Source of the DNA: Bacteroidales bacterium
GTDB taxonomy: Bacteria > Bacteroidota > Bacteroidia > Bacteroidales > VadinHA17
Direction: 5' to 3'
DNA length: 32,452 nucleotides
Assembly: GCA_012517605.1 (NCBI GenBank)
Contig: JAAYUS010000012.1
Location: 1-32,452 of the forward strand
This document shows, in pieces, positions 423 through 32,446 of the stretch. Every line of letters starts with the position of its first letter. Positions within the stretch are counted from its first letter, which is position 1. A program made the translations under genes and the position numbers. The notes under the pieces were generated by a model, which saw only the letters and a list, made by a program, of their open reading frames with translations, was not told the DNA's origin and did no database searches.

Positions 423-2585
423 TCATCTGGATTCGACCAGCAAAGAGCCTTTCAATTTTATATCTGAAGAGGATGATCCCACAAAGAAATCGATTTTCCC
501 TGGTTCAAGTACCCATTTCTCCGATTCAGTATCCCAATATGTAAGATCACTGGCTTTAACCGGAATTGTAACAAGCTTTTCTTCTCCCTTTCTGACCATA
601 ACCCTTGCAAATCCTTTCAGCGCCTTTGCAGCTCTCTCAACCTTCGAACCGGGAAAACTAACATAAAGCTGAGGCACCTCATCACTGTCAAAATTGCCGG
701 TATTCCTGATTCTGAAACTTACATTGACAGTTCCATCTTTTGAAATTGTCTTAGCGTCGGTTTTAAGATCCGAATAGCTGAAGCTTGTATATGTAAGACC
801 GTAGCCAAAAGGGAAAAGCGGAACCGACTTGTCATACATATAGGTCCTGCCATGCCGGATATTGTAATCAAGGATCGGAGGAAGGGCTTCAATTGATGAA
901 ACCCATGTCTGTACCAGCCTTCCCGAAGGGCTTTCTTTCCCGAATATGATATCAGCCAGGCCGTTACCCAGTTCCTGACTCGATTGTGAAACATGCAGTA
1001 CCGCAGGAATATTCTCTTTCGACCATGGGATGGAATAAGGGAAGCTTGATACAATTACCATGACAGTATTGGGATTTGCTTTATAAACAAGCTTTACAAG
1101 GTCTTCCTGTTCCAGAGATATTGCCTGTCTGTCGACATCTTCGCGGCCGTCGCTCGGAACATAATTCTGTCCCCATCCAAGGCCGTAGCTCAAAGGATGG
1201 TTCCCGACACATACTATTGCAACATCGCTTTGTGCCGCTGCTATAACTGCGGAATCTGCCTTGTTGCTCATTGCAAACCTGATTTTAATGTCATCCCCTG
1301 AAGCATTCTTTATACCATTCAGTATATTTACACTATAAGGAGGTGTGCCGGAATACCAGTCGGAGATGACTTTGTTTGCAGAGGGTCCGATAACAGCAAT
1401 CGACTTTACCTTATCCTTCTTCAGGGGTAGCAATGAGTTCTGGTTTTTCAGAAGGACAACTGATTTCCGTGTTGCAAGACGTGCAAGCTCACGGGCTTCG
1501 GGTTTGTTCCATGGTGCAATGGTATCACTAATCCCGATTTTGTTGTACGGATCACCCGGCTGATCATCGAGCAGTCCAAGTTTAAGAAGTACCCTGAGGT
1601 TACCGTAAATTGCCTCATCAATTTCCGATTCGGATATAAGTTTTTTTGACAATGCTTCACGAAGCGGAGCCATGTAATTATCAAGGAAAACTGTTATTCC
1701 GGCTTTTATGCATTCGGCAGCAGCCACATCGAGTGACGGGAAATATGCATGGGTCGAAAGAAGCTGTCGGTATGCGCCTCCGTCAGTACAAATTATTCCC
1801 CTCAGGCCCCAGTCCTTCATTGTGACATTTCTCAGAACGGGGTGAACAGTGCATGGTATTCCGTTGTATTTGTTGTATGCTGCCATGAAGCATTGTGATC
1901 CTCCATCGACAACTCCTTTATAGAAAGCATATGAATAATATTCCCTGAAGAGCCTTTCATCAAAGTCGGAGCTGTTGTATGACCGGTTATTCTCGTTGCT
2001 GTTTGCAAGGAAATGCTTCATCAGGGAAGCTGTTTTCCAGTAAACCGGATCATTGCCCTGAAGCCCTTTAACAAATGCTGTCACAAGGGTTGCATTAAGG
2101 AAAGGATCTTCACCATAACACTCCTCGGTCCTGCCCCATCGTATATCCCTGCCCATGTCGGCATTAGGGGCGAAGACAATAAGTCCGGATGTTCCGAAAC
2201 GTCTGTTCTGTGCAAGGAATCTGGCTTCAGTGGCCTGCCAGTCGGCGACTCTTTTCAGAAGTTCAGGATCCCACATCTGTGCAAGGCCGATAGCCTGGGG
2301 AAATGTGGTTGTCGGCGAGGCTTTGGGTCCTTTCACGGCCCAGTTGGCAGGACCGCTGTATGCAAGCCCATGCAATCCTTCTATAGTCATTGTCCCTTTG
2401 ATGCCAAGCCTCGGAACTGCCAGTCGTGGTGAAAGGCATGAGATCTTTTCATCAATAGTCATAAGTGAAATAAGGTTCTTTATCCTGGCATCTTCAGGAA
2501 GATTTTTGTCCCGGAAAGGATAGGACTGTGCCGATACACCAATACAAATGAAAAGCAATATCAGCAGGCCGTAAAGTCTGTTCAT
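423..2585 (-). CDS. GH3 family beta-glycosidase (beta-glucosidase/beta-xylosidase-like), secreted
   Basis: This 720-residue protein probably hydrolyses beta-linked glucosides or xylosides from non-reducing ends in the periplasm. A signal peptide (MNRLYGLLILLFICIGVSA, cut before QS) starts it. The N-terminal barrel carries KHFLANSNEN around residues 190-199 and GIICTDGGA, in which Asp268 fits the GH3 nucleophile. The C-terminal sandwich domain carries GREDVDRQ, where Glu481 is a likely acid/base. A fibronectin-III-like domain occupies about 630-710. Length and order are normal for three-domain GH3 enzymes. It follows the DoxX-fusion gene by 20 bp on the same strand, so co-transcription is likely. 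Sequence alone does not separate glucosidase from xylosidase activity. Confidence 0.9.
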   Translation of the reverse strand: MNRLYGLLILLFICIGVSAQSYPFRDKNLPEDARIKNLISLMTIDEKISCLSPRLAVPRLGIKGTMTIEGLHGLAYSGPANWAVKGPKASPTTTFPQAIGLAQMWDPELLKRVADWQATEARFLAQNRRFGTSGLIVFAPNADMGRDIRWGRTEECYGEDPFLNATLVTAFVKGLQGNDPVYWKTASLMKHFLANSNENNRSYNSSDFDERLFREYYSYAFYKGVVDGGSQCFMAAYNKYNGIPCTVHPVLRNVTMKDWGLRGIICTDGGAYRQLLSTHAYFPSLDVAAAECIKAGITVFLDNYMAPLREALSKKLISESEIDEAIYGNLRVLLKLGLLDDQPGDPYNKIGISDTIAPWNKPEARELARLATRKSVVLLKNQNSLLPLKKDKVKSIAVIGPSANKVISDWYSGTPPYSVNILNGIKNASGDDIKIRFAMSNKADSAVIAAAQSDVAIVCVGNHPLSYGLGWGQNYVPSDGREDVDRQAISLEQEDLVKLVYKANPNTVMVIVSSFPYSIPWSKENIPAVLHVSQSSQELGNGLADIIFGKESPSGRLVQTWVSSIEALPPILDYNIRHGRTYMYDKSVPLFPFGYGLTYTSFSYSDLKTDAKTISKDGTVNVSFRIRNTGNFDSDEVPQLYVSFPGSKVERAAKALKGFARVMVRKGEEKLVTIPVKASDLTYWDTESEKWVLEPGKIDFFVGSSSSDIKLKGSLLVESR

Positions 2586-2605: not shown

Positions 2606-4198
2606 TTATGCCAGCCAGGGTCTTGAAGTGCGGTTGCGGGCTCCGGCAATTGCGTCAAGGGCTATATTGACATCCTCGACGATCTGGAAATCATACATGC
2701 CGAGACAGACAAAATCTGCCCCATTGTCAAATGCATATTTAAGTCCGACTTCAGGCTTTATTGCACCGGCAGCCAGTACCTTAAATGCAATCCATGGCTC
2801 CTTCAGTGTACCCATATACCTGACTGTCTCTTCAGGATCGAAGTCAAACTTATTATCATTCCAGTCCTGGTTGGTCTGTGCTGACCAGTAATTATAGTTA
2901 TGACATGTCTTTACCCAGAAATCGGGTTTCAGCCCGTAATCAACGCATGCCTTTATGGCTTCTATTCTGTGAGCCCCAATGCCTGCCGGCTTGCCATTTG
3001 AACGTATTTCTTCGAGGCCGGCCTTTATAAGCTCCATACGTTCGGTAAGAGTTCTCTTTTTCGGATCGTCCCATTCGGGATTTGTAAAACGGTCGGTGAT
3101 CTCACCCTGACAATACAGGGCATCCCAGTCGGCCGCCAGCGACATTCTTATTCCCTGCTGGAAATCGAGATTTGTCCCACAGTCGGAAATGAATTTTATC
3201 TTACCCCTGAATTCATGTCTGTACTTCTGGAATATCCTTCCCATCTGCGGATTTGAAATAATGGCATTCATCCCGCATTTCTCGCCAAGAGCCAGTGTCT
3301 GAAGCACCTTCTCGTCGGTATGATATGTCTTGACAAGCTTTGAAACATATATAAGATCTCTTGCATGGGCCCATCCTCCGATAAGATTGCCGCCCATAAG
3401 CAGCCGGCTCAGCTCAAAATCAGCAAGATTGCCATTCTTATCTGTATATTTTATCACTCCTTTCGGAACCTGTCCTTTCAGATCCTTAAGAGTTGAATAA
3501 TTGAATTTAAGAAGAGTGGCCCCGGAGTTTGCATCCATGCCGTCGATGGCAAGAAGTTTCTCCTCGAAACTGTCCCATTTCCTTTTCCTGTATAGGGCAT
3601 AGGCAAAAGCCCCTAAGGCAGGAACCGAAATAAGATCACGAAGTACCTCCCTTCGTCCCACACCTTCTGGCCGATCGGCGGGCATCTCCCCCACAGGCTT
3701 TCTTGCTTTTTCAGATTTCCATCTTTGCAGGAGCCTGTCGATCCCGAATTGAGATCCGGGCGAGAGGAATATGAAAACTGAAAGTGCAAAGAACTCTATA
3801 AGGTTTCTGTTTACCCACAGATAACTTCCCTCTACAGGCACGCCGAACATATATCCGGGAATTGGAGGATATGCAACAAAATAAAAGAATAACATTATGG
3901 CTCCTGCAAGGCTGGCCCATCTCGTAAAAAGACCTGTTATGAGACCCAGCCCGACAAGTATCATTCCCCATATATTTATGAAGTCGACCACCGAAACTAC
4001 CGACTGGTTGCCTGCCATTGCCGTGAACAGCGGGGCAAGGATCCACTTGGAACCCGCCAGATAAGGCGCAGAACTCCAACCTGATGCCACGATCTTTGCA
4101 ATTCCTTCATAAAGGAAATGCCATCCGATTACTATTCTTACGAGTGTCAGTACCCATGGAATGATCCGTCCTGTTGCAGAACCAGTCTGTGATTTCAT
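2606..4198 (-). CDS. DoxX-like membrane domain fused to an exported TIM-barrel-like domain
   Basis: A 530-residue protein. Residues 1-150 contain four hydrophobic segments (about 15-33, 73-90, 94-110, 132-147) with the look of the DoxX/SURF4-type quinone-linked membrane family. A hydrophilic linker then leads to GRREVLRDLISVPALGAFAY (181-200), which resembles a Tat signal: twin Arg 182-183 followed by a hydrophobic stretch. From about 215 to 530 a soluble domain follows, with GGNLIGGWAHARDLIYV, ISDCGTN and GADFVCLGMYDFQIV. I recognise this as a conserved but uncharacterised Bacteroidota/Planctomycetes-type barrel, often seen alone behind a Tat signal. Four helices place the twin-Arg in the cytoplasm, so the barrel would be periplasmic. 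Function is unknown; a redox or sugar-acting role is a guess from context. Confidence 0.7.
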   Translation of the reverse strand: MKSQTGSATGRIIPWVLTLVRIVIGWHFLYEGIAKIVASGWSSAPYLAGSKWILAPLFTAMAGNQSVVSVVDFINIWGMILVGLGLITGLFTRWASLAGAIMLFFYFVAYPPIPGYMFGVPVEGSYLWVNRNLIEFFALSVFIFLSPGSQFGIDRLLQRWKSEKARKPVGEMPADRPEGVGRREVLRDLISVPALGAFAYALYRKRKWDSFEEKLLAIDGMDANSGATLLKFNYSTLKDLKGQVPKGVIKYTDKNGNLADFELSRLLMGGNLIGGWAHARDLIYVSKLVKTYHTDEKVLQTLALGEKCGMNAIISNPQMGRIFQKYRHEFRGKIKFISDCGTNLDFQQGIRMSLAADWDALYCQGEITDRFTNPEWDDPKKRTLTERMELIKAGLEEIRSNGKPAGIGAHRIEAIKACVDYGLKPDFWVKTCHNYNYWSAQTNQDWNDNKFDFDPEETVRYMGTLKEPWIAFKVLAAGAIKPEVGLKYAFDNGADFVCLGMYDFQIVEDVNIALDAIAGARNRTSRPWLA

Positions 4199-20856: not shown

Positions 20857-22824
20857 ATGAATCATGGAAATTCTATTAAGAAATTTACAGATGATCTTCC
20901 CGAAAGAATTAAACAAATCGGGACAACAGAAGAAGTTAATGAATGGAAATACCTGAGAGCCGGTAAGCTTAAAATGATTTACCGAAATGGCACGATACGT
21001 TATCTTTCAGGTGGAAATAATGAATTGATAAGGATGATTTATGCTGCAGTCCGCGACAAGGATTGGCAGGTAGTTCTTCCACATATTGAAGATGAGAATA
21101 TTACAATTGATGGAAATTCATTCAGCATAGAATTCAAATGCCGTTACAAAAATGCCGGAATTGATTTCCTTGCCGGATTCACGATATACGGCAGCGAGGA
21201 TAACAGCATCACTCTGATAATGGATGGGCAGGCTCTTGAAACATTCGAAAAGAACCGTATTGGATGGTGCGTTTTACATCCTGTAGAAGGTTGTGCCGGG
21301 ACAAACTGTATAATAGAACACTCAAACGGATCAACTACGCAATCAGCTTTTCCTGAAGAAATCAGTCCGTATCAGATCTTTTCAAACATAAGATCAATGA
21401 ACTGGATGAATGGAAAAATCAATTGCAAAATTTCTTTTGAAGGTGATGTTTTTGAAACGGAGGATCAACGTAACTGGACAGATGCATCATTCAAAACCTA
21501 TTCCACCCCGCTTTCTCTGCCATTTCCTGTAACCATTGATAAAGATACCAGGATATATCAGAAAATAGTCCTGAACTTTAATGGTCAGTTTGAAGAAGAT
21601 CGTGATGGTGATAAGGTAAATATAGTCAGACTTTACCCTGATGAAACTTACAGGATCCCTGAGCTTGGCATATGCAGGCGATCCTCTGGTGATGGCTCCC
21701 TAAGGGAAAACGAAGCAAAAATACTCAGAGCACTCCGTTTTGATCACTACAGGATTGACATTCACCTTTATAAAAAAGACTGGCAGAAGGAAGCCTCAAA
21801 AGCTGCTTCCGAATCTCATGATCTTGGTTTTCCGGTTGAAGTTGCCCTTTTCTTCGACGATAGCTATGAAACTCTGATAAAGAGTTTTATAAAATGGTAT
21901 TCTGAAGAAAGAATAACTATTGCATCGGTTCTTCTGTATCATTTCTCAATACCATTGATTCCTGACGAACGGGTATGGGAGATTATCAGAAATCTCAGGG
22001 AAACAGATCCGCAGATCAAAGTTGCAGCCGGAACAAACGCAAATTTTGCACAGCTGAACCGTAACCGTCCGGGTGATTCCAGAAATGATTCGGTATGCTT
22101 TTCCATTCATCCGCAGGAACATCTTTCAGACAATCTTACCCTTGTCGAGAATCTGAAAGCACAGGGCTATGCAGTGTCAAGTGCCAAAAGATATTTTGGA
22201 AATAAAAAGATTGCCGTTTCGCCTGTCACTATTCAGAGAAGGTTCAATGCAAACAAATCACTTTTTGAAATACCATATATTGGTAATGACATGCCACCGC
22301 AGGTCGACAGTCGTCTAATGTCACTTTTTGGGGCATGCTGGACTGCCATCAGTGTAAAATATATATGTGAAGCAGGGGCCGACAGCATCACATACTATGA
22401 AACTGCAGGAGAAAGAGGTATAATTCAGGGAGAAACCGACCCGCAATGGCCCGGACAATTCAGAACGGTAAAAGGAATGATATTCCCTGTTTACCACGTT
22501 TTCAGGTTCATTCTTGCCAATAAATCATTCCATGTGTTGAAAAGTACAAGCTCAAGACCATTGGATGTTGACTGCCTGGCCCTCTCCGACGGCAAACAGG
22601 CAAGATTAATACTTGTGAACTTTACATCCGGCGTACAAACTGTACTTCTTGAATGCTGCTCGGGTTTGTTCAGGATAAGGACTCTAAGTACAGACAGCTT
22701 CAGTGAAGCTGCATCAAACATGAGGTGGACAGGTATGGAAAAGGAAAAAGTAATTAAATCACAAAACATTTTTGATCTGGAACCCTTTTCAATAAATTTT
22801 ATTGAAGGCTGGAAAAAACATTAA
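20857..22824 (+). CDS. apnL: D-apionate lactonase (D-apionolactonase) family protein
   Basis: A 655-residue protein without a signal peptide, hence cytoplasmic. It should hydrolyse D-apionolactone to D-apionate. The N-terminal domain carries the family strings RMIYAAVRDKDW (59-70), NRIGWCVLHPVEGCAG (133-148) and TEDQRNWTDASFKTY (201-215), which I associate specifically with ApnL. A TIM barrel runs from about 285 to 560 and a C-terminal beta domain follows. The family's typical size is about 600 residues. All downstream neighbours fit the same pathway: permease, GH140-type apiosidase, OiaC-, ApsD- and ApnO-like enzymes. The name rests on motif recall and gene order, not on a search. Confidence 0.83.
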   Translation: MNHGNSIKKFTDDLPERIKQIGTTEEVNEWKYLRAGKLKMIYRNGTIRYLSGGNNELIRMIYAAVRDKDWQVVLPHIEDENITIDGNSFSIEFKCRYKNAGIDFLAGFTIYGSEDNSITLIMDGQALETFEKNRIGWCVLHPVEGCAGTNCIIEHSNGSTTQSAFPEEISPYQIFSNIRSMNWMNGKINCKISFEGDVFETEDQRNWTDASFKTYSTPLSLPFPVTIDKDTRIYQKIVLNFNGQFEEDRDGDKVNIVRLYPDETYRIPELGICRRSSGDGSLRENEAKILRALRFDHYRIDIHLYKKDWQKEASKAASESHDLGFPVEVALFFDDSYETLIKSFIKWYSEERITIASVLLYHFSIPLIPDERVWEIIRNLRETDPQIKVAAGTNANFAQLNRNRPGDSRNDSVCFSIHPQEHLSDNLTLVENLKAQGYAVSSAKRYFGNKKIAVSPVTIQRRFNANKSLFEIPYIGNDMPPQVDSRLMSLFGACWTAISVKYICEAGADSITYYETAGERGIIQGETDPQWPGQFRTVKGMIFPVYHVFRFILANKSFHVLKSTSSRPLDVDCLALSDGKQARLILVNFTSGVQTVLLECCSGLFRIRTLSTDSFSEAASNMRWTGMEKEKVIKSQNIFDLEPFSINFIEGWKKH

Positions 22825-29136: not shown

Positions 29137-31323
29137 CTACTTTACCCTGATTATTTTTTCTGCAGAAAATAAATCTCCTTGTTTGGAAACACCCTGTATC
29201 ACGATTTTATAATCTGACTTTATATCGGAAGTAAAAAACTCAACAGAACAACTGCCTTGCCTGTTAAATTTTAATTCCGGATTCCAGTATATTGTATTTC
29301 TGAAGTCCGGCAGCCTGCTTTGTGTCTTTTCCGCAGAGCCGTAATCCGGTGATGAAAAGGACTTCGTCTCTTCAATGGCCCTGTATCGGATCCTGACGGC
29401 ATAATCCGGAAGTGTAAAATGGCTGAAATCACCTGACCGCGTAATTACATTTACAAGTCCGTAAAACATATAATCACCTACAAAATACCTGGCTTTGATG
29501 GCATCAACCTTTTCCACAAGTTCAGGGTCGATGTTTGCAATTATTGCCGGATCGTTAATAATAACCCCGTCTGCAAACAACATCGGCGGTTTGTCGAAGA
29601 ACTTATTTTCGACAGGATCAAGAATAGTTATTTCATAATCCGATTTCCTCTTCTTCAGGGAAATCCCGGGCATCAATTCAAAAAAAACTTCCTGCATCAC
29701 GGGCAGCTTAATATAGTCATCCATGACAAGCTCAATATCAGGCTTACCGTAAAACCTTTTTCTTCCTGAAGCCAAAGCAACCTGTGAAGTAGTTGCCTTA
29801 AGATCTTCCGAAGTATAAATTTTCATAACCTGATAATTTACACCAAGCCTTGACAATTCCTCTGATACGATCATACCGGAGCTGTCACCTTTACCCCAAA
29901 GGAAAGGATATCTCAGGGAAAAGGAGTTTTCTATTTCCAGATTATTGTTTCTTTCGGGATCCTCCGGTTGAATAATAAGATCCCGCAGGTTTTCATCCAA
30001 AGGTAAAGAAAAGCTGAACTCACCCTTTTTGTCCGTCAGGGCATACTGGAAATATGCATTTTTCCCCGGGATTGAAAGAAATACGTAATGTCCGCTGTCG
30101 GGCTTCTGTGTAGTTTTATTCAGTAACCGTCCGTACAGAAAGTGGTCTTCTGTTTCCTTCTTATAGGTGACAGACGGGGATTTCCCCGACAGAATTGCTT
30201 CCCAGTCAATCCAGTTGCTCTTAAGGCCGCGCAGGATGTTATCAAGGGTGTCACGCCCTATTTCATCCAGATCAGAATGAAAAAGTTCACCCGGAAGAGC
30301 CCCGAATTCCGAGCCAAAAACAAGATAATCGGCAATGTCCGGAAAACTTTCACTGCCTGCAGGAACAACTGAAACGCTGGCATTAAGATCAGTTCCGATC
30401 TCAGATGACCCGGACTCGGCTTTAAATGAAGCAGCAACTTTATCCCTCAGGTTATAGCTTTCCTCCGATATAACTTCCATGCCTGCTTTATCGAAAGGTG
30501 TATAGATATATTTCTCGTACACCGGTCTTCCCGAAATGTTGAACAATGTAATCTGATTGATGCCAGGTGTAATAAGATTGCCCGGGATCTCGACATTTGT
30601 TATATCTCCTGTAATTCCGACAGGCGAGGCAAAGTTCATGGATCCGCGGGTCTGAACTGACAGATAATGAGCAGTACCTTTTGCAGAACGATATTCAGGT
30701 GAAGAATTAATTTCAATGATTGCTTTCCGGTTACCTTCCCGTCTTACGTTTAGTGCAAGTCCGGGCTGCTGCAACACTGTAACATTTCCTGCCGGAGTTC
30801 CCACTTTAGCTCGTTTATCCTTAAAGCTTCTGTTTTTCAATGGATTAAAGACCAATATGTTTTTAGAAAAGCAGTTGTCCGGCATGAAGTTCTTCATCCA
30901 GTTTGTATAAGCTCTAATTATGTAAATCCCTGAGCTAATCGTATCAGGAAGTGAAACCTGTCCGGGCCCCACTCCATCATAAATTCCAATTCTCTTCTGC
31001 ACAACTGGTCTGTTCTCAGGATTCAGGATCTCAAAATAGACTATTCCATTACCAGTCAGCGGTTTTAGAATTTGTCTGTCAAATGCATATATTTTGAACC
31101 AGATATCTTCACCCGCGATATATTCCTGCCTGTCGGTATGTATATAGATTTCCTCCCGCGGAAACAGCCTGACATATTCAGCCAGTTTTTTTGACAGGAC
31201 ATCTGTAAAACCAGTCTGCGATTGTCCTGAAACCGGGAACAGCAGCAGGAAGAACATGCTGAATATCAACCCCGGATTAACCAGCATCAGTTTATTCATT
31301 AATTGCTTATTACTTTTCTTCAT
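29137..31323 (-). CDS. Macroglobulin-like (MG2) surface protein with carboxypeptidase-regulatory-like and TonB-plug-like domains
   Basis: A 728-residue secreted protein of a Bacteroidota-specific type. A signal peptide ends near SGQSQ (about 36). Residues 50-140 resemble an MG2 domain (REEIYIHTDRQEYIAGEDIWFKIYAFD, SGIYIIRAYTNWMKN). A regulatory-like fold follows near 400-450 (KNAYFQYALTDKKGEFSFSLPL). A plug-like domain without a barrel lies around 530-630 (PPMLFADGVIINDPAIIANIDPELVEKVDAI, YGLVNVITRSG). Members sit at the outer membrane beside TonB-dependent systems; the function is not established. The start overlaps the DUF4249 gene by 14 bp. Met9 (ATG 31297-31299) would avoid this and is an equally good start. 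Confidence 0.75.
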   Translation of the reverse strand: MKKSNKQLMNKLMLVNPGLIFSMFFLLLFPVSGQSQTGFTDVLSKKLAEYVRLFPREEIYIHTDRQEYIAGEDIWFKIYAFDRQILKPLTGNGIVYFEILNPENRPVVQKRIGIYDGVGPGQVSLPDTISSGIYIIRAYTNWMKNFMPDNCFSKNILVFNPLKNRSFKDKRAKVGTPAGNVTVLQQPGLALNVRREGNRKAIIEINSSPEYRSAKGTAHYLSVQTRGSMNFASPVGITGDITNVEIPGNLITPGINQITLFNISGRPVYEKYIYTPFDKAGMEVISEESYNLRDKVAASFKAESGSSEIGTDLNASVSVVPAGSESFPDIADYLVFGSEFGALPGELFHSDLDEIGRDTLDNILRGLKSNWIDWEAILSGKSPSVTYKKETEDHFLYGRLLNKTTQKPDSGHYVFLSIPGKNAYFQYALTDKKGEFSFSLPLDENLRDLIIQPEDPERNNNLEIENSFSLRYPFLWGKGDSSGMIVSEELSRLGVNYQVMKIYTSEDLKATTSQVALASGRKRFYGKPDIELVMDDYIKLPVMQEVFFELMPGISLKKRKSDYEITILDPVENKFFDKPPMLFADGVIINDPAIIANIDPELVEKVDAIKARYFVGDYMFYGLVNVITRSGDFSHFTLPDYAVRIRYRAIEETKSFSSPDYGSAEKTQSRLPDFRNTIYWNPELKFNRQGSCSVEFFTSDIKSDYKIVIQGVSKQGDLFSAEKIIRVK

Positions 31324-32446
31324 CCCAGAAATCAGGTTTTATTGTAACGCCTCGGGTTGTACAATCGGCACAGTATTTCTTATCGGTGATAATTTTGTAT
31401 GGAGGCATGGAATAAGGCTCATCGACTATCACCCATACCGATGAATTCAGGTTCGGAATCGGTTTGTTTCCGTAAATAGTGTCGACCGGACATTGTCTGT
31501 AAAGGTTTATCAGTCCTCTGAAAGTCTCTTTTATGAAGATCCTTTCTGAAGATTTTCCTGATACGCTGAAATACCCAAGAACCCTTTCAGCCGGATCTTC
31601 GACGCAAAAAATATTACCAGGTATTGATGCGGGAATGACATCGTACAAACCGCCTACATCCTGTGAGACATTCTGCAGTTTTTCCCAGTAATTGAACTCA
31701 TCCTCGTTTAAGGAATACTGATTTACAAGAAGGCTGTATTTTTGACTTAATCTGTCTGTCTCACTTGATATGAAATTCAGGGGATACTTTCTGATAACGT
31801 TTTCAGAAAGCACTGAAGTGTTTTTGATCTTTATCACAGTCGAATTATTTGTGATCCAGCATATATGGTTTGTAACCATATAAGGGAGCCTGAATTCCCA
31901 GGTTTCTGTGTAATCCCACCTGTAATACTTGCATTTACCCGATTCATCATGAGTGTTCAGATAGATCTGGCATCCTTCCTTTGGACCGGAATTCTCATCC
32001 TTCTCCTTGATTACCACTTTCTCGTAATACAGGCTGTCAATGGGAGGAGTTGAGATCAGCTCCATTGGAAGAGACTGGTAGGAATAATGACTTGGTGTGG
32101 CATTTCCAGTAAAGATATGCAGCGTATATTTTCTTCCAACCACGCCACTGAAAACTGACTTATCTGAAAGATATGTTCCGGCTGTTGACGACTCCCTGAA
32201 CTGGTAATAATTCCCTTTGTCGTCACTTACAGAAACCGAACATCCCTTTAACGGTTTTAAAGCTGCCTTTTTGCCAAGCGGCATCGATTTTGAGAGTTTT
32301 ACAGTATAGGTTTCCGGCTGATCAGTAATCATTCCCTCTACCACCAGGATATCTTTATCCTCATCTGTTTCGGGAACAAACTGTGTTATACATCCTGTAA
32401 ATGAAATAGTTAACAGTAATATGATTATGTTCTTGATTGGATTCAT
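31310..32446 (-). CDS. DUF4249 domain lipoprotein
   Basis: A 378-residue lipoprotein with leader NIIILLLTISFTGC (Cys19 lipidated). It opens with DKDILVVEGMITDQPETYTVKLSKS, the standard start of DUF4249 proteins: a carboxypeptidase-regulatory-like segment (CSVSVSDDKGNYY) followed by RKYTLHI and a beta-rich body. DUF4249 genes usually lie directly beside a TonB-dependent receptor, which may be beyond the window end, since only 6 bp remain upstream of the ATG. It heads an apparent minus-strand transcript with the macroglobulin-like gene. The biochemical role is unknown, perhaps as an outer-membrane partner in uptake or surface export. Confidence 0.82.
   Translation of the reverse strand: MNPIKNIIILLLTISFTGCITQFVPETDEDKDILVVEGMITDQPETYTVKLSKSMPLGKKAALKPLKGCSVSVSDDKGNYYQFRESSTAGTYLSDKSVFSGVVGRKYTLHIFTGNATPSHYSYQSLPMELISTPPIDSLYYEKVVIKEKDENSGPKEGCQIYLNTHDESGKCKYYRWDYTETWEFRLPYMVTNHICWITNNSTVIKIKNTSVLSENVIRKYPLNFISSETDRLSQKYSLLVNQYSLNEDEFNYWEKLQNVSQDVGGLYDVIPASIPGNIFCVEDPAERVLGYFSVSGKSSERIFIKETFRGLINLYRQCPVDTIYGNKPIPNLNSSVWVIVDEPYSMPPYKIITDKKYCADCTTRGVTIKPDFWDEEK

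Follow-up and report, generated by a model that had tools for sequence, protein, structure and literature searches.

The window, by which we mean the whole 32,452-nucleotide stretch analysed (Bacteroidales bacterium, assembly GCA_012517605.1, contig JAAYUS010000012.1), carries on its minus strand an open reading frame for a four-part fusion protein consisting of a DoxX membrane domain, an arginine-arginine (RR) helix, a linker and an aldo-keto reductase (AKR)-like TIM barrel (Table 1). As stated by an earlier sequence-only reading, a GH3 enzyme gene adjoins the fusion, on the same strand and 20 bases further on (423-2585). Positions 423-28064 form a plant-glycan island, apparently a locus for degrading apiose or pectin. 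Its genes encode GH3, GH30, GH141-like and GH28 enzymes, several apiosidase-like proteins with DUF5060, a LacD/DeoC-type aldolase, a hexokinase, xylose-isomerase-like barrels, Gfo/Idh/MocA, a PGDH_C protein and a ureide/sugar permease. A 655-amino-acid ORF amid the glycan genes (20857-22824) has no Pfam match at E 0.001. In addition, at 29137-32446 on the minus strand, an MG2-domain protein (a weak match, 23.6 vs. 32.8 bits) overlaps a DUF4249 protein by 14 bases. Deducing a substrate from the neighbours of fusions was tried and abandoned: the 90 scanned, out of 290 chosen, revealed no dominant family or single pathway, the commonest being NosD (5), sulfatase (4) and beta-helix proteins (4).

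Table 1. Features of the fusion gene and its neighbour, with positions in the window.
Feature	Position	Strand	Basis
DoxX - RR helix - linker - AKR-like TIM barrel fusion, 530 aa, ATG start	2606..4198	-	ORF, Pfam, AlphaFold model
DoxX domain, residues 9-164, four long helices and a short fifth	3707..4174	-	Pfam DoxX, predicted models
RR helix, residues 182-203, Tat-type, weakly hydrophobic	3590..3655	-	residue invariance, hydropathy
YRKRK basic stretch, residues 203-207, directly after the RR helix	3578..3592	-	alignment columns
Flexible linker, residues 218-232	3503..3547	-	pLDDT <50 in AlphaFold model
DANSGAT, ApbE-type flavinylation motif, residues 222-228, predicted FMN site Thr228	3515..3535	-	motif match, conservation
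AKR-like TIM barrel, residues 238-524	2627..3487	-	predicted model, structure comparison
GH3 enzyme gene, next downstream	423..2585	-	ORF, family match

A search of genome contigs yielded at least 571 relatives, of which the best 80 were kept. The window protein and 52 proteins from related loci were combined in an alignment (A2, 53 rows) that served as input for an AlphaFold model of the fusion (mean pLDDT 84.2, pTM 0.64). The model places long helices at residues 9-37, 65-88, 92-109 and 131-144, plus one at 153-164, and a further helix at 180-188/191-206 that precedes the linker and the TIM barrel. Residues 17-106 match DoxX in Pfam (PF07681, 27.6 bits vs. a cut-off of 23.6), and the predicted models give the four-helix membrane domain expected of the DoxX family.

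By predicted structure, the barrel aligns best with the aldo-keto reductase PA4992 (VIA-align, Z 20.6, rmsd 2.6, 224 residues). In the window protein it matches no Pfam or NCBIfam family and has no credible PDB sequence relative, no AKR or oxidoreductase family is among the Pfam matches that 28 members gave at E up to 5, and the sole outcome of one sequence search with the barrel was a short IMPDH stretch (E 0.002). Aldo-keto reductases use an Asp-Tyr-Lys-His catalytic tetrad; the invariant barrel residues include N271, H278, R280, D281, D339, H410, K430, H433, K473, D503 and Q505, and the tetrad is not evident among them, as judged from alignment columns. Two further comparisons were set aside as weak, one with a single AKR as a guide to function (51 columns at 3% probability) and one with the window's own DeoC/LacD protein as a sign of kinship.

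Residues 181-200, GRREVLRDLISVPALGAFAY, had been taken for a Tat-like signal lying behind four membrane helices, and this description holds: the sequence is as given, the helices are present in the model, and the arginine pair is invariant. R182, R183 and P193 are unchanged in 53/53 aligned fusions of A2 and in 103/103 non-redundant fusions, so that the helix is conserved beyond chance. Its hydropathy peaks at 1.30 (best 19-residue Kyte-Doolittle mean) vs. approximately 1.5-2.0 for the DoxX helices, and a lysine or arginine stands at position 204 in 46/53 rows of A2 and at 205 in 46/53. Dual Sec-Tat proteins, as described in the available text of the defining study, possess a weakly hydrophobic last segment with positive charges behind it, and in two families RR lies immediately ahead of TMD5; known examples are actinobacterial Rieske proteins, Sco3746, polyferredoxin and YkuE-like proteins (eLife 2017, PMC5449189). 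As in these proteins, hydropathy and the model place an even number of helices ahead of the RR in the fusion and a single one directly behind it. Furthermore, the last helix of the fusion combines low hydrophobicity with trailing positive charge (YRKRK), hydrophobicity being expressed here on the Kyte-Doolittle scale and in the text of that study as insertion free energies (PMC5449189).

Free-standing barrels with an N-terminal Tat-type RR, whose absence would have counted against the sequence-only reading, were sought and found. The RR lies within the first 60 residues in 29 of the 34 free barrels, and four of the five without it are doubtful or cut frames; in relatives of the source genome, free barrels are mostly 336-357 amino acids long. 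The history proposed in the sequence-only reading, a single fusion of DoxX to a once-separate Tat substrate, is not borne out, because the barrel tree (72 fused, 28 free and 4 outgroup rows) forces at least nine architecture switches on well-supported branches, with free barrels nested among fusions. One clade of 22 Bacteroidota rows interleaves 12 free barrels, all retaining RR, with 10 fusions; these free barrels look like the outcome of repeated DoxX loss, as far as their sequences can tell.

Several architectural variants were also encountered. Four free barrels of 255-358 amino acids (L047-L050), three with an RR motif, are only remotely related to the barrel of the fusion. Two or three Tat-type free barrels stand in tandem in Planctomycetota and Sumerlaeota (L160, L161, L165, L171), the copies sitting in different clades of the tree. 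A Kiritimatiellales MAG encodes two DoxX-barrel fusion genes in tandem (L124:5266-8460), and in L020:1-2136 a DoxX-barrel is followed in one frame by a second partial barrel (712 amino acids, open at the contig end), either a tandem or an assembly artefact.

The linker between the RR helix and the barrel holds a motif that the sequence-only reading overlooked. Residues 222-228, DANSGAT, exactly match the ApbE flavinylation site D-x-x-[ST]-G-A-[ST], for which seven residues are enough according to section 8 of a review that also describes ApbE as a periplasmic enzyme (PMC12052999). All 103 non-redundant fusions have Thr (85) or Ser (18) at position 228, a site thus invariant as Thr/Ser; D occupies 222 in 93, S or T occupies 225 in 95, and A occupies 227 in 94. 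Position 226 is G in 60 and S in 38, and the strict motif was counted as D..[ST][GS]A[TS], with G or S allowed at the fifth place. Just upstream of the motif, linker length varies (alignment A2). The strict motif occurs in 83/103 fusions vs. 2/34 free barrels (L166 and L132; Fisher p 2.7e-15, in a test that ignores relatedness) and in 17/30,900 shuffled linkers (0.06%). It is missing from 20/103 fusions, these misses including one-residue-shifted forms in Acidobacteriota, and the fusions L017, L018 and L101 read DANSSET in its place.

The distribution of the motif follows that of DoxX. None of the 12 clade-nested free barrels has the motif intact; in L042 it reads DAVSGAP. Three free rows carry the strict or a near form, namely L166 (DAFTGAT), L132 (DAITSAT, in a doubtful frame) and L134 (DTVTAAT), and a search with a DoxX alignment finds DoxX at another place in each of the three genomes (E 1e-48 or better); in the L166 and L134 genomes, this DoxX is part of another DoxX-barrel fusion with the motif. 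Nine other free-barrel genomes gave no DoxX match in eight cases and a weaker one (E 4e-14) in the ninth. This test was devised with the motif already in view and its outcome not yet known. Sequence comparison thus indicates that the motif travels with DoxX across genomes. The window protein has no match to the FMN-binding domain, which we take to be PF04205, in Pfam at E up to 1.

With these elements in place, the topology of the barrel can be weighed. The weak hydrophobicity of the RR helix and the basic residues at both its flanks would also suit a re-entrant or amphipathic helix with positive charges on both sides, the barrel staying in the cytoplasm and the arginine pair being a relic. 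We consider such a topology very improbable: no fusion among the 103 has lost the pair, the free homologs begin with RR signals, and TatC is present in 39/42 genomes behind diverse loci. Moreover, ApbE acts in the periplasm according to the review text (PMC12052999), and weak hydrophobicity with C-terminal charges is, in the text of the dual Sec-Tat study, the very rule for Tat-dependent last helices (PMC5449189).

A second arrangement was found through short RR-helix matches, in which a stand-alone DoxX gene lies beside a separate gene for a Tat-type Gfo/Idh/MocA protein. Of the 26 such proteins compared, 24 adjoin DoxX and 2 lie at contig ends; the motif Thr is kept in 26/26 and the strict form in 23/26. 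The segment bearing the motif aligns to gaps in 8 non-partner Gfo proteins. These 8 come from a set of 22 further Gfo-like ORFs in flanking DNA, all of which (22/22) lack the motif. Within the Bacteroidota sample, 7/247 genomes carry DoxX of this subfamily (E 1e-15 or better), and all seven have a stand-alone copy beside a Tat-type Gfo that bears the motif in six cases and the near form DAVASAT in one; the source genome of the window is among the seven (pair L179/L236). For the two partner Gfo proteins scanned, the nearest NCBIfam family is the BT_2158 glycoside 3-dehydrogenase, at 110 and 118 bits vs. a cut-off of 750. One Gfo protein beside a stand-alone DoxX (L283) lacks the strict motif in the part examined.

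Stand-alone DoxX genes are frequently linked to apbE. In phylum samples, a DoxX match was found in 25/199 Acidobacteriota and 13/199 Planctomycetota genomes, and stand-alone DoxX has an apbE gene no more than 2 kb away in 20/25 Acidobacteriota loci, all 25 of which were read with extended flanks, and in 9/11 Planctomycetota loci. All 15 of the neighbouring ORFs tested were confirmed as ApbE by Pfam. Among the Acidobacteriota, apbE is on the opposite strand in L239, none occurs within 2 kb in L227, L233, L234, L240 and L243, and in L242 the contig stops within the Gfo. Eleven Acidobacteriota loci have a motif-bearing Gfo (5 strict, 6 DAVTTAT), nine of them with apbE, and most of these nine show the order apbE-doxX-gfo with touching or overlapping ends. 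The thirteen loci with a motif-less Gfo have apbE in 10 cases; a flavin site in this motif-less group was sought and none was found. These motif-less loci, the L283 pair and the odd Planctomycete loci need another flavin carrier or another role. An RDAAGxxVSG-like stretch near the C-terminus of several motif-less Gfo proteins (L224-L235, L258) might be a divergent site. The Planctomycetota DoxX proteins of 343-494 amino acids (L213-L222, L237, L238, L259-L266) are unlike the rest; one, L218:337-1809, has a long charged segment between the first helix and the remainder, and apbE directly adjoins 9/10 loci with DoxX of this type.

In Bacteroidota, apbE is not beside the DoxX-Gfo pairs in any of 7 phylum-sample loci or 6 further loci. 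In one Bacteroidota locus (L223), the order doxX-gfo-gfo-...-apbE-tatC runs on a single strand, with apbE 5.4 kb away. Within the flanks examined, apbE adjoins 0/93 fusion rows; the source genome of the window encodes ApbE on another contig (G000:C96:8171-9004, 275 bits). ApbE occurs in 135/146 relatives and in 41/42 genomes behind diverse loci. Because it is nearly ubiquitous, its presence by itself says little, and it was dropped as support for flavinylation. Five relatives have barrel-family matches and no ApbE match: G042, G048 and G050 (94-95% complete), G064 (68%) and G074 (74%). The motif is intact all the same in the fusions from G042 and G048, and reads DANSSET in that from G050.

The lack of apbE next to the fusions, the existence of free barrels without DoxX and motif, the predicted disorder of the linker and the absence of an oxidoreductase Pfam match for the barrel would each agree with a plainer account, in which DoxX and the RR helix merely anchor the protein in the membrane and DANSGAT serves as a structural linker or caps a helix, with no electron flow. 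We regard this account as unlikely. It leaves unexplained the recurrence of the motif in an unrelated fold that is likewise paired with DoxX, its company with DoxX across genomes, the apbE-DoxX operons of two phyla, and a Ser or Thr retained at one linker position in 103/103 fusions.

DoxX and DoxD are components of thiosulfate:quinone oxidoreductase (TQO), and the window protein falls below the cut-offs of the TQO subunit DoxD models (13.5 vs. 22.7 bits and 15.6 vs. 300). Searched by itself with Foldseek, DoxX had no match that reached E 0.001. With VIA-align, DoxX alone is most similar to NACHO/TMEM35A (Z 11.3), followed by the vitamin K carboxylase GGCX (9.1) and VKOR (6.0), values that could arise by chance for helical bundles. 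NACHO/TMEM35A is an assembly factor, and this best match, the lack of a solved DoxX-quinone structure among the fold matches and the pairing of motif-less Gfo proteins with DoxX are what one might expect if the motif were flavinylated and DoxX acted as an assembly or lipid-binding partner or as a thiol handler, the FMN serving the enzyme or some other acceptor. Such a role appears quite improbable given the coupling between motif and DoxX and the nearly invariant polar residues R21, E31, K35 and E135 of the DoxX helices. DoxX residues separating motif-bearing from motif-less partners were also sought, and none was clear.

Our preferred reading, to which we assign a probability of roughly 0.7, is that the window protein is a one-chain flavinylated electron-transfer oxidoreductase in which DoxX, a Tat-exported barrel and covalent FMN are coupled to quinone. 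Sec would insert DoxX with its four helices. The RR helix, weakly hydrophobic as it is, would then be released, and Tat would export a barrel that had folded in the cytoplasm and probably carried a cofactor. This part of the scheme is suggested by the sequence features together with the published dual Sec-Tat rule. Linker and barrel would thereby end in the periplasm, tethered to DoxX, where ApbE would attach FMN to Thr228 within the flexible linker, a step predicted because the motif is exact, conserved and ApbE-linked. The tethered FMN could shuttle electrons between the barrel active site and DoxX, which in turn may exchange them with the quinone pool; TQO biology points this way, as does the weak resemblance that the DoxX fold bears to vitamin K carboxylase and VKOR. 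Glycan-enzyme neighbours and Gfo relatives hint, weakly, at a sugar-type substrate and at a flow most likely running from substrate to quinone. The two-gene pairs of DoxX with Tat-type Gfo/Idh/MocA proteins would represent the same system, with a Rossmann-type dehydrogenase replacing the barrel. The original proposal of a membrane redox-type module linked to a periplasmic enzyme gains in strength through the flavinylation motif and the apbE-doxX-dehydrogenase operons of other phyla.

A wider generalization is more tentative, and we would put it at somewhat worse than even odds: DoxX may be the membrane half of an unrecognised flavinylated conduit, in which electrons pass from Tat-exported, NAD(P)-loaded dehydrogenases through ApbE-attached FMN and DoxX to quinone, the tags of the barrel and Gfo proteins having been gained independently. 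If so, periplasmic sugar oxidation of the NAD(P) type would feed respiration, and the unrelated barrel and Gfo/Idh/MocA enzymes would each have acquired a flavin tag in order to plug into DoxX. To our knowledge, the route by which Tat-exported sugar dehydrogenases are re-oxidised outside the cytoplasm is not settled, and a conserved module that joins DoxX to a flavin tag and a Tat signal would offer a concrete answer. It would also assign a role to a widespread and poorly understood membrane family.

Comparison with known systems places each part of the fusion in context. The TQO proteins DoxX and DoxD share with it a DoxX-type membrane domain of four helices, whereas the partner here is another protein and the DoxD models remain under cut-off. 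With aldo-keto reductases such as PA4992 and the L-galactose dehydrogenases, the likeness lies in the barrel fold (Z 20.6 over 224 residues); unlike them, the window barrel is apparently exported, tied to DoxX and without a sequence-family match. The BT_2158-type glycoside 3-dehydrogenase (NF058561) is the nearest named family of two DoxX-paired Gfo proteins, although these fall far below its cut-off of 750, and the resemblance is one of the two-gene relatives rather than of the barrel in the window. Dual Sec-Tat proteins, as far as the main text of their description goes, have in common with the fusion an RR before a weakly hydrophobic last helix, positive charges behind it, an even number of helices ahead and a folded domain outside, while the exported domain here is a TIM barrel with no recognised metal or Fe-S cofactor motif; that main text does not mention the DoxX family (PMC5449189).

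The closest parallel is provided by ApbE-flavinylated extracytosolic electron transfer, which has been surveyed twice (eLife 2021, PMC8238504; mSystems 2024, PMC11334425). The text available from these surveys contains no mention of DoxX (PMC8238504, PMC11334425). A literature search, with most subscription papers, all bioRxiv preprints and supplements outside its scope, returned no paper with both ApbE and DoxX and, among the papers it matched, none with DoxX and MocA together. Flavinylated proteins of the present kind would escape searches limited to FMN-binding domains or apbE neighbours. Judged against the surveyed systems as their available text presents them, the resemblance comprises the motif type, a genomic ApbE and a non-cytosolic enzyme tied to a membrane component, with apbE as direct neighbour here in the DoxX relatives and not beside the fusions themselves; the differences are DoxX as membrane component, an AKR-like barrel and Gfo/Idh/MocA proteins as carriers, and no FMN-binding domain (PMC8238504, PMC11334425). 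If the assignment is correct, these two carriers would join the known ApbE substrates, and one family would join the few dual Sec-Tat proteins. Altogether, the membrane component, the carriers and the assembly by a dual Sec-Tat route are what is probably new here within ApbE-flavinylated electron transfer.
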